DNA of 26,162 nt from a virus. The position numbers and the translations under genes were made by a program. Each line of letters begins with the position of its first letter. Position 1 is the first letter of the stretch. Below are positions 1 to 6,324 of this stretch, one piece after another. The notes under the pieces were generated by a model, which saw nothing but the letters and a program-made list of their open reading frames with translations, made no database searches and was not told where the DNA came from. Location of the stretch: IMG/VR virus record IMGVR_UViG_3300032462_000070, positions 1-26,162 of that record; one strand, 5' to 3'.

Positions 1-468
1 TGTAACATATTCAATGCCCTAATCAAGAAGAAAGAATGTATTAAATACTTAGATGATAAGAGGATAAGACTTTCTGCAGCCACAGACATAACCAATGAAC
101 AAGTATTGAACGAGTTAAAACAATGGGCGTACAGTGATGCTACTGATTTTATTAGTTTGACAGAAAATGAAATAAAGGAACTACCGCCAGAAGTAAGGCG
201 AACAATTCAAAGCTTTAAAGCCACAGAACGAAAGGAAAAAGACAGGTCGGGCAATGAGATAACCACCAAAGCAATAGAAATAAAGCTGATTAATAAGGCA
301 GATGCCTTGAAGGAGATCTCAAAACATATCGGTTTTTACGAGATAGACCACAAACAGAAACAGCCACTTTTAAACCTATCCAACGCAACGCCTGATGAAT
401 TAAATACAATTTTGAAGCTATTGACAGACCAAAAACAAAGCAAAGAGACAAAAACAATAGACGTCTAA
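1..468 (+). CDS. Terminase small subunit, 5' end cut by window edge
   Basis: Small-terminase proteins bind the packaging site on phage DNA and hand it to the large-subunit motor. The reading frame is open from base 1 to the stop at 466-468, so the gene begins outside the window; a TTG at 106 is not needed as a start. The visible 155 residues show the Terminase_2 pattern: a helical segment ending in RIRLSAATDITNEQVLNEL, then an LKQWAYSDATDF block, where AxxDxxDF is typical of the family, and a later ALKEISKHIGFYEIDHK block. The C-terminus is polar and lysine-rich. GC is near 37-40% in the lines counted, higher than in the head genes downstream. The large subunit is not adjacent but starts at 4861. 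Family assignment comes from recalled motifs. Confidence 0.85.
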   Translation, partial: CNIFNALIKKKECIKYLDDKRIRLSAATDITNEQVLNELKQWAYSDATDFISLTENEIKELPPEVRRTIQSFKATERKEKDRSGNEITTKAIEIKLINKADALKEISKHIGFYEIDHKQKQPLLNLSNATPDELNTILKLLTDQKQSKETKTIDV

Positions 469-779
469 AAAATACAAAGCCAATGACAGTAATGGCAAAT
501 TCTACTTGTTACACACGTGGGAGACAAATAATTTTTAAGGTATTAATATGAATAATAGACACCCTTTGAATAAAAGACTATTAATTTTGTTAGATAAAGA
601 CCCCCCCTCGACCCGAACGGACACACGCCTTCTACCCCCACACAAAAATTTTTCCTAAGATTAGGTTTTGGTTGGTGCTTTTTAGTAAGGGAATGGGTAG
701 TTGTGGTTTGTGGGGCATATGGTGTCGGTTTAAGGTCATTGTTTGGATTTGTGTTGTGGTTGGTTGAAAAATGATTTCG

Positions 780-792
780 AGTGCTTTGCACT
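780..792. repeat. Small inverted repeat AGTGC-TTT-GCACT
   Basis: A perfect 5-bp inverted repeat with a 3-base loop, preceded by TCG. It resembles the one at 934-946 in layout (TCGA, then a TGC-nnn-GCA core), so the two may be copies of one protein-binding or structural signal. Short stems like this also arise by chance. Confidence 0.35.
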
Positions 793-826
793 TATTGTGT
801 TGTGATTTTTATTTCAATGTATTGCG

Positions 827-836
827 TATCGCGATA
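827..836. repeat. Perfect 10-bp palindrome TATCGCGATA
   Basis: A self-complementary 10-mer with a CGCG core in an otherwise G/T-rich noncoding stretch. CG dinucleotides are rare in this window, so it stands out. It could be a binding site for a dimeric protein; nothing in the sequence says which. Confidence 0.35.
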
Positions 837-933
837 TGGGTATATTCCTTTCTTTATGTTTACGGGTATTTCTGTTTGGGTTGGTATAAATTGAGGTAAA
901 TGAGTGTAAATCGAGGGGGTGAAAAATAAATCG

Positions 934-946
934 AATGCTACGCATT
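934..946. repeat. Small inverted repeat AATGC-TAC-GCATT
   Basis: A perfect 5-bp inverted repeat with a 3-base loop, lying directly after the second TAAATCGA (927-934). It has the same geometry as the repeat at 780-792, about 150 bases upstream. Confidence 0.35.
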
Positions 947-1014
947 GTTTATGGTTATGTCTTTAGGGGATTGTGTTCCTTTATGGTTTTTAAAATAGTT
1001 ACGAATTTCTTAGG

Positions 1015-1041
1015 TTTGTATGTGTTAAGTAGTTACCTTTG
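1015..1041 (+). promoter_or_regulatory. Candidate Bacteroidota promoter for the 1061 gene
   Basis: A -7 box TACCTTTG at 1034-1041 matches the TAnnTTTG consensus of Bacteroidota. A TTTG at 1015-1018 could be the -33 box, but the 15-base spacer is shorter than the usual 18-20. The ATG lies 20 bases after the -7 box. Confidence 0.45.
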
Positions 1042-1060
1042 TTTAAACTAAAACTATATT

Positions 1061-1300
1061 ATGACACCAAAAGAAAAGTCAGAAGATTTATTTAACTACT
1101 TCCACAATGACTTACAGAACGAAGATACTGATTGTGGGCAAGAAATTTTAGTATCTTTATTGGCTATAAGATATTCGTTGAAGTGTGTGGATGAAATGAT
1201 TAAAGCATCCAATAGAATTACAAATCATTTACCAGATAGTTGGGTAGGAGAAGAACAAAATTATTATAAAGAAGTTAAAAAAGAAATAAATAAACTATAG
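1061..1300 (+). CDS. Small hypothetical phage protein (79 aa)
   Basis: I cannot assign a function. The 79-residue product is acidic and helical, opens with MTPKEKSEDLF and closes with YYKEVKKEINKL. This layout (a PKEK start, a central cysteine-containing helix with VDEMIKA, and a final VKKEI) recurs in small proteins of flavobacterial phages and prophages as I recall them, which supports a real gene. There is no signal peptide or membrane segment. The start is the first ATG, 20 bases after a -7 promoter box, with A/T-rich sequence and no Shine-Dalgarno before it. It is the first gene after the long noncoding stretch; a hairpin (1303-1340) and a 47-residue membrane-protein gene follow. Confidence 0.7.
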   Translation: MTPKEKSEDLFNYFHNDLQNEDTDCGQEILVSLLAIRYSLKCVDEMIKASNRITNHLPDSWVGEEQNYYKEVKKEINKL

Positions 1301-4402: not shown

Positions 4403-4780
4403 ATGAGCGAATTATCGATTACAGGAAGAATTAAAGAATTTTTACCAGTAGAAAGTGGAATATCTAAAAAAACTCAAAAGGAGTGGCAAAAACAAAACTT
4501 TATTGTTTGTAACAATGATGGTTATGAGGGAAAGGAACAAATATATTGCTTCGAGGTATTCGGTGGAGAAAAAGTTGAAAACTTAACTAAGTTTCAAAAA
4601 GTTGGAGATGAAGTTAATGTGCAATTCAATATAAGTACTAATGAATGGAAAGGTAAATACTTTACAAGTCTTGGTGCATGGAAAATTGAAAAAGCAACAT
4701 CAGACCAACCATTACCACCACAAAATTTACAAACAGCAGAAGATGTAATAGCAACAAACGTAGATGATTTGCCTTTCTAA
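4403..4780 (+). CDS. DUF3127 / SSB-like OB-fold protein with DDLPF tip (125 aa)
   Basis: The first ~100 residues match the DUF3127 pattern of Bacteroidota: ITGRIKEFLPVESGISKKTQ, a K-Q-x-F-I-V block, an ECFEVFGGEK-like block (read here as YCFEVFGGEK), GDEVNVQFNI and a final EWKGKYFTSLGAW. This is an OB-fold related to single-stranded DNA-binding proteins. A flexible segment rich in Q and P (DQPLPPQNLQ) follows, and the chain ends DDLPF, close to the E. coli SSB tip DDDIPF that recruits replication and repair enzymes. Likely role: coat single-stranded phage DNA and recruit partners. The ATG is preceded by an A/T-only tract typical of flavobacterial starts. It sits between the phosphoesterase pair and the terminase large subunit. 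Confidence 0.85.
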   Translation: MSELSITGRIKEFLPVESGISKKTQKEWQKQNFIVCNNDGYEGKEQIYCFEVFGGEKVENLTKFQKVGDEVNVQFNISTNEWKGKYFTSLGAWKIEKATSDQPLPPQNLQTAEDVIATNVDDLPF

Positions 4781-4868
4781 AAAGGTAGTTCTATTAGGTT
4801 ATTTTATAAACGAAATAGATGCACATGAAGCCTATCAAAAAGAGCTAAAAAAGATACTAAATGGATAA
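4764..4868 (+). CDS. Possible overlapping micro-gene (34 aa)
   Basis: A 34-codon frame starts inside the end of the SSB-like gene and ends 8 bases inside the terminase gene, bridging the 80-base gap. The product ends NEIDAHEAYQKELKKILNG, which looks like a helix from a real protein. The overlaps would couple translation from the SSB-like gene into the terminase. It may instead be a chance frame or a translational bridge with no functional peptide. Confidence 0.35.
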   Translation: MICLSKKVVLLGYFINEIDAHEAYQKELKKILNG

Positions 4869-6324
4869 AAATATTGACATTAATAATTTACTTAACGGAT
4901 TAACTCCGTTTGATATTAGAACTAATTTATTTAAGAAAGGAAACTATGATTTTATAGTTGATGGAGAAGATAGGTTTGGAAAACCAGCTACTCATAAAAA
5001 AATGAAGAAATGTTTTGAAATATTAATGTCAAATAATTACAAATCAATACTTTATGGTGGAGGTGCTGGTTCTGGAAAGAGCTGGACTGGATGTTGTTGG
5101 CTTCTGTTTATGTGTATATTATATCCAAAGAGTAAGTGGTTTGTAGCAAGAAATGAAATTGGGTTAGTAATAAAATCAGTTTATGTTACTTTTATTAAAG
5201 TGTGTGAAGAATATGGGTTTGATGATTTTAATTTTAACGCTGTTCATAACTTTATAAAATTTGGAAACGGAAGTATGATTAGTTTTGTTGAAATAAAGAA
5301 AAAACCAAGCGACCCTAATTACACTTCTTTAGGTTCAACCGAGTACACAGGGGGCTGGATTGAAGAAGGTGGTGAAATTGATGAAACAGGTGCAACTGTA
5401 ATAGGAACAAGAGTTGGTAGGCATTTGAATAATAAATTCACATTAAATGGTAATGTTTTAAGAGGGATTGTCTTTATAACTTGTAATCCTGAAAAAAATT
5501 GGTTAAAAACAGAATTTTATGATAAATGGAAAAAAAATGAATTAGAACCTAAAAAGTTTTATTTACCTGCTTTAATTGATGATAATCCTTTTGCAACGGA
5601 AGATTACCATGAGAATCTAAATAATTTAAAGTTAAAAAACCAATACTTATATGAAAAATTAAAGAAAGGTGATTGGGATTATTCTGATAATCCATATCAA
5701 CTTCCTGAACAAGAAATGATAGAGGCTATTTTCTCAAACGACCATGTTGACGATGGTAAAACTTATTTAACAGCCGATGTTGCTCGACAAGGAAGTGATA
5801 AAGCAGTTATTATAGCATGGAGTGGTTGGGTAGCAAAAGAAATTATTACTTACGATAAGAGTTCTATTCCTGATATTGTACACGCTATAAAATATCTTAG
5901 GCATAAATACAGAATACCAAAAACAAGGTGTATTGCAGATGGTGATGGAGTTGGAGGTGGTGTTATTGACTATACGGACATTAAAGAGTTTAGGAACAAT
6001 GCTCGACCAATTAGAAAAGGAAAAGATACACCTAATTATAGAAACTTACAGATACAATGTTTATATCTACTTGCAGAAAAGATTAATGCAGGAGAAATAT
6101 GGATTAATGCAGATATTGAAAGTAAAGTAAAAGAAGATATAAAGGTTGAATTAGCTCAAATACAATCAGCACCAAGTAAAAGAAATGACAACAAATTAGA
6201 TTGTAAAGCTAAAGGAGATATAAAAAGTGATATTGGTCGTTCTCCTGATTATCGTGATGCTTTGTTTATGAGAATATTTTTTGATTTAAAGAAAACTGTT
6301 AATATTGTAACGAATTGGAACTAA
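4861..6324 (+). CDS. terL: Terminase large subunit (packaging ATPase and nuclease)
   Basis: This protein is the motor that pumps DNA into the prohead and cuts it. N-terminal ATPase: Walker A at residues 66-75 (GGGAGSGKSW), Walker B-like WIEEGG with E168-E169 after STEYTGG, and the coupling motif FITCNP at 205-210. C-terminal RNase H-like nuclease: D306 (LTADVARQGSD), D360/D362 (IADGDGVGGG) and D463/D467 (SPDYRDAL). At 487 residues it is of normal length for the family. All key residues are present. It is followed by an ~85-base gap with a promoter before the portal gene. The small subunit lies 4.4 kb upstream instead of next to it, which is unusual. Confidence 0.95.
   Translation: MDKNIDINNLLNGLTPFDIRTNLFKKGNYDFIVDGEDRFGKPATHKKMKKCFEILMSNNYKSILYGGGAGSGKSWTGCCWLLFMCILYPKSKWFVARNEIGLVIKSVYVTFIKVCEEYGFDDFNFNAVHNFIKFGNGSMISFVEIKKKPSDPNYTSLGSTEYTGGWIEEGGEIDETGATVIGTRVGRHLNNKFTLNGNVLRGIVFITCNPEKNWLKTEFYDKWKKNELEPKKFYLPALIDDNPFATEDYHENLNNLKLKNQYLYEKLKKGDWDYSDNPYQLPEQEMIEAIFSNDHVDDGKTYLTADVARQGSDKAVIIAWSGWVAKEIITYDKSSIPDIVHAIKYLRHKYRIPKTRCIADGDGVGGGVIDYTDIKEFRNNARPIRKGKDTPNYRNLQIQCLYLLAEKINAGEIWINADIESKVKEDIKVELAQIQSAPSKRNDNKLDCKAKGDIKSDIGRSPDYRDALFMRIFFDLKKTVNIVTNWN

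Follow-up and report, generated by a model that had tools for sequence, protein, structure and literature searches.

What is the role of a gene-free stretch of phage DNA that directly follows the gene for the small terminase subunit (terS) and in which strand composition switches sharply? The question is raised by a 26-kb virus fragment, hereafter the window (the whole stretch of 26,162 nucleotides that was analysed), which is kin to the Polaribacter phages P12002L and P12002S (Incheonvirus), its terS being 50-52% and its large terminase (terL) 52% identical to theirs. A preliminary description had proposed that this stretch is a packaging site (pac or cos), a replication origin or a noncoding RNA. 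Of these three, the comparison with relatives reported below favours the origin: on sequence grounds, positions 601-653 are probably the core of a phage replication origin, with flanks that would extend over approximately 469-1060.

The composition of the locus sets it apart from the remainder of the window (Table 1). The C-rich block, the A5T5 tract and the G/T-rich stretch lie exactly where they had been described. The C7 run is the window's only run of at least six C, AAAAATTTTT occurs a single time, and the C content of 601-643 is 58%. The 407 bases that follow the tract are 69.5% G+T, compared with an average of 48.3% (SD 4.3) over the window, and no later stretch of the same length exceeds 58.7%. 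The window's largest jump from A/C to G/T is found at position 650 with halves of 130 bp or 400 bp, and at 649 with halves of 300 bp. We find no credible gene on either strand of 469-1060, where the sole open reading frame of at least 50 amino acids is an 82-aa minus-strand frame with a GTG start that crosses the C-run, and both the absence of genes and the identity of the upstream gene as terS (matches in Table 1) stand as first described. The palindromes and short direct repeats noted earlier are present but weak, consisting of repeat families of 10-23 nt with two copies each and of several inverted repeats, for which no excess over chance is claimed.

Table 1. Features at the left end of the window, with terL for reference.
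Feature	Position	Strand	Matches and remarks
terS, small terminase subunit	1..468	+	PF03592 1.4e-6, phrog_51 7.4e-7; 5' part cut by window edge
A/C-rich noncoding left flank	469..600	+	carries words common to relatives
C7 run, left half of bipartite element	601..607	+	
36-nt spacer, near-fixed length, variable sequence	608..643	+	
AAAAATTTTT core of right box; switch point 649-650	644..653	+	
G/T-rich gene-free right flank	654..1060	+	counterpart of element-to-primase noncoding stretch in second phage group
79-aa gene, function unknown, first gene right of element	1061..1300	+	phrog_21441 9.7e-8
terL, large terminase subunit	4861..6324	+	PF04466, phrog_2

A direct DNA search of phage records with the 592-bp region gave zero matches. 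Comparison with the terS-adjacent region of related phages, a check put forward in the preliminary description, reveals a conserved bipartite element in P12002L/S and in about 15 IMG/VR relatives collected through terL. It consists of a C-run, approximately 36 nt, and a right box of the form (T)TCACCC(C/T)CACA-AWAATTTTT(C), and in these relatives it is positioned between or beside the terminase genes. The C-run usually has six to eight C, at times fewer or with interruptions, and the spacer varies in sequence while its length is nearly constant; in the window it measures 36 nt from the end of the C-run to AAAAATTTTT, its last 14 nt or so (TTCTACCCCCACAC) being part of the conserved right box. 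The left flank holds two words common to relatives, GGAGACAAATAATTTTT (520-536) and ATAAAAGACT (570-579). In P12002L/S the element lies about 80 bp after terS and is accompanied by the same composition switch and by homologous terS and terL, differing from the window in a shorter noncoding right flank. As an exact 20-letter pattern, the right box turns up seven times among viral contigs. Bacterial and archaeal contigs, 257 Gb in all, contain it only twice; neither of these two matches is associated with phage genes, and neither has a C-run at the appropriate spacing. A conserved hairpin within the spacer was also considered and dropped (mean z = -0.6 over 20 elements).

The available portions of the published description of P12002L/S report no origin or packaging site (PMC4615864). 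More generally, in the literature searched, outside of which most subscription papers fall, we found neither a replication origin nor a packaging site described for these Bacteroidota phages of marine and gut habitats, and nothing relevant on a Bacteroidota phage origin of the present form; the C7-N36-A/T architecture has no recognised counterpart in that literature or in Rfam.

A structured noncoding RNA encoded by the G/T-rich stretch would agree with the length of the gene-free region, with its two small hairpins and with the promoter-like box at its end. We regard it as highly improbable, given that the stretch folds no better than its shuffles (z = -1.0), that Rfam returns no match, and that annotated genes occupy part of the equivalent region in P12002L/S. 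Small hairpins of the form A5+...TCGnnTGC-TwC-GCAnn occur right of the element in the window (~767-795 and 919-945) as well as in contigs L009, L010, L011, L013, L016 and L050; in some relatives they are located within a small ORF, just after an A7-A8 run that is a possible slippage site.

The strand switch tracks the element, not terS. In seven of ten tested sequences (the window, P12002S and contigs L010, L053, L009, L134 and L136), the strongest A/C-to-G/T jump coincides with that of the element or is found no more than about 110 bp away; among the other three, the jump at the element ranks in the top 0.6% in L008, is weak in L037 and is lacking in L018. The terL relatives without a recognised element have no such switch upstream of terL. 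A more direct comparison is offered by terS itself, which always has the + orientation and has the element either downstream (class A) or upstream (class B). Its skew at third codon positions (G+T-A-C) averages -0.15 in class A (n=13) and +0.26 in class B (n=5), with no overlap between the two (Mann-Whitney p 2.3e-4, a value that treats related sequences as independent); the third positions of the window's terS are likewise A/C-rich (keto3 -0.20). Because class B is polyphyletic on both the TerL and TerS trees, with about three separate changes, shared descent fails to explain the flip. That the synonymous composition of the same gene flips according to its side of a 53-bp element makes these phages a clean natural test of local strand-asymmetric mutation.

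The third-position skew is strong within approximately 1-2.5 kb of the element and gone further out; that it does not span whole replichores counts against an origin. Cumulative skew over full sequences, another check named at the outset, gave a divided answer. The GC-skew minimum and the element are no more than about 110 bp apart in P12002S and contigs L010, L008 and L018, and no more than about 50 bp apart in L136 and, after detrending, in L037; in L053 and L134 the minimum is more than 1 kb away. Since the global minima largely coincide with divergent gene blocks, they are confounded and provide no independent evidence.

The element's position, at or close to the point where leftward and rightward gene blocks diverge, would suit a divergent regulatory region (a promoter or terminator, perhaps with R-loops) in which the skew comes from transcription and no origin is involved. 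Promoter-like TAnnTTTG boxes are present further right, and clusters of G on the - strand could favour R-loops. We nevertheless hold this explanation to be quite unlikely. Transcription of terS runs rightward whichever side of the element the gene lies on, yet the synonymous composition changes sign with that side, and the A/C-rich terS of class A cannot be explained by such rightward transcription. In the window, moreover, the candidate promoter box TACCTTTG (1034..1041, + strand), which we take to be a possible Bacteroidota-type -7 box (TAnnTTTG) for the next gene, is found about 380 bp right of the element.

The polarity of the switch leads back to the origin. Right of the element the + strand is depleted in C and A relative to T and G, and on the left it is the - strand that is depleted. 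From established strand logic, single-stranded DNA at divergent forks or in an opening bubble should be the + strand to the right of the site and the - strand to its left, and the observed polarity fits diverging forks, with loss seen on precisely these strands; the sign change expected of diverging forks is weak at the element in L037 and absent in L018. We suggest that the C-run and the A/T box, held approximately 36 bp apart, could form a recognition site, an opening site or both, and that one strand on each side would be repeatedly single-stranded, the + strand rightward and the - strand leftward. Deamination-type changes in such exposed DNA may then have made the + strand G/T-rich over some 0.4-2 kb to the right and A/C-rich over some 0.1-1 kb to the left. 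The exposure is presumed to stem from replication initiation, either through forks or through a D-loop or R-loop primer, with the element as a putative initiator or unwinding site.

A second, independent group of phages, whose packaging and replication genes are unrelated and in which the element has a different neighbourhood, bears on this proposal. In contig L018, a near-identical element, made up of a C9 run, a 34-nt spacer and the core CACCCTCACACAAAAATTTTT, precedes a primase-helicase gene (D5_N/DUF5906, phrog_864) by 414 bp, and terL is on the strand opposite to that gene. A scan of this group for the related right box alone, by means of a pattern that made no demand for a C-run, yielded eight loci. 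Each of them has four or more consecutive C where the spacing predicts a C-run, and seven precede a D5/DUF5906 primase-helicase gene. A Parabacteroides distasonis prophage has C11, 36 nt and AAAAATTTTT 341 bp upstream of a P4-family primase, its terL being on the other strand, some 4-5.5 kb past the primase, and LoVEphage has a looser version with 37-nt spacing upstream of a primase operon. Across the second group, the spacing from C-run to core is 34-37 nt, and the element is situated about 340-540 bp upstream of P4/D5-type primase-helicase genes. Iteron-like repeats, as judged by eye, lie between the element and the primase. In L134 and L136 the composition switch at the element is again the contig's largest, or adjacent to it, and the left arm of the switch is missing or weak in L018, LoVEphage and the P. 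distasonis prophage. The DUF5906 primase of this group was not found in the two contigs of the window's group that were searched, and the window itself is too short for its replication genes to show.

Left of the C-run, a palindrome TACATTAT-N4-ATAATGTA occurs in L134, L136, L121, L191, L192 and the P. distasonis prophage, preceded in some loci by GATTTTCAGTTAGTTA. NZ_OY725767.1, a record labelled as P. distasonis plasmid 22, looks like a chromosomal fragment, since ileS, capsule genes and a prophage are found on it.

The neighbourhood in the second group also weighs on the possibility that the element is a cos or pac initiation site, in which the C-run and the A-tract box would be putative TerS/TerL binding sites and the cut would fall in the variable spacer. 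In the window's group the element always adjoins terS, on one side or the other, through about three rearrangements, and no known replication gene adjoins it, an arrangement that speaks for packaging and counts against an origin. PF03592 (Terminase_2), to which the window's TerS belongs, is presumably the family of SPP1-type TerS, a likeness to SPP1-type pac phages. Two contigs (L032 and L050) start inside the element. The cos site of HK97 is similar in having a homopolymeric G/C run and an A-tract box near terS, with a poly-G run (G9, ~39682-39690 of NC_002167.1) that ends up 42 bp to the left of the cut and a TerS site in an A-tract at +15 to +29 (PMC11331095), and 3' cos ends were predicted by PhageTerm for another Polaribacter phage, Leef (PMC8776804), which was not recovered by our terS and terL searches.

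We nonetheless judge a packaging site to be rather unlikely. In L018, L134 and the P. distasonis prophage the same architecture precedes primase-helicase genes, and terL is on the opposite strand at a distance of 4-10 kb. With this layout, the initial argument that C-runs beside A/T tracts near terminase genes typify packaging sites loses its power to discriminate. HK97 differs in the same respect, given that the present element is not confined to the vicinity of terminase genes, and in its geometry, its G9 being on the terS strand and separated from the cut by 42 bp, with the TerS box 15-29 bp beyond that cut. Loss of the 5' strand from a cos cut end, by 5'-to-3' resection, would reverse the polarity of the skew. 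Most contigs run through the element without a break, and the P12002L/S assemblies closed as circles, for which their authors proposed permuted or redundant ends (PMC4615864). Packaging and origin functions could also share one locus.

As a packaging-site mark across many phages the pattern was rejected, with 37 matches at the true spacing against 25 in a wrong-spacing control; because of this control, most matches outside the two coherent groups are probably due to chance, including several terminase-adjacent ones that initially seemed convincing and the HNH/TerL contig L129. A motif in L019 just upstream of another terS-like gene, with no C-run at the right distance, may be a chance occurrence as well. 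Contig ends near the element in unrelated pattern matches were left out of consideration, since a pattern search cannot return contigs that are cut inside the element.

A replication origin remains the best reading, as it accounts for the element itself, for the polarity, for a skew that is local (as expected of a bubble or D-loop rather than whole replichores) and for the primase neighbourhood. Theta- and D-loop-type origins of phages, plasmids and mitochondria share with the present loci a composition that diverges from a noncoding point, with opposite A/C and G/T sides, and a primase-helicase gene adjoining the element in the second group. They differ in that the skew here is confined to 1-2.5 kb and in that neither an initiator nor clear iterons were identified in the window, where only single words are common to relatives. 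It is conceivable, although we would put it forward only tentatively, that Bacteroidota phages whose replication and packaging proteins are unrelated make use of a single portable origin element of C-run, 36 bp and A/T box, that it is read by a host factor and opened by an R-loop or D-loop, and that it leaves behind a strand-composition scar on the kilobase scale; such an element would recall the C-rich blocks of the mitochondrial control region. A short, specific and searchable element that predicts an origin or packaging site would allow origins (or genome starts) to be placed in many metagenomic phages.

Several further observations concern the surroundings of the element. Left of it, P12002L/S and contigs L009, L010, L011, L012 and L016 contain the words (CACCGANC)GGAGACAAAA(TAATT) and ATAAAAGACT, possible initiator repeats, the latter in two near-tandem copies in P12002L. 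The near-identical phages L014 (1-615) and L010 (2559-2847) have a differing block just right of the element, which in L014 reads like an HNH homing endonuclease gene. Upstream of terL, contigs L011 (1-106), L044 and L054 (both from base 1) start within arrays of short tandem repeats, (AACAAGGGCCAG)n and (TGATACAATGCACC)n. Finally, a tRNA-Leu (CAA) called by ARAGORN at 4555-4640 of the window lies wholly within the ORF of a single-strand-binding protein (4403-4780) and is probably spurious.
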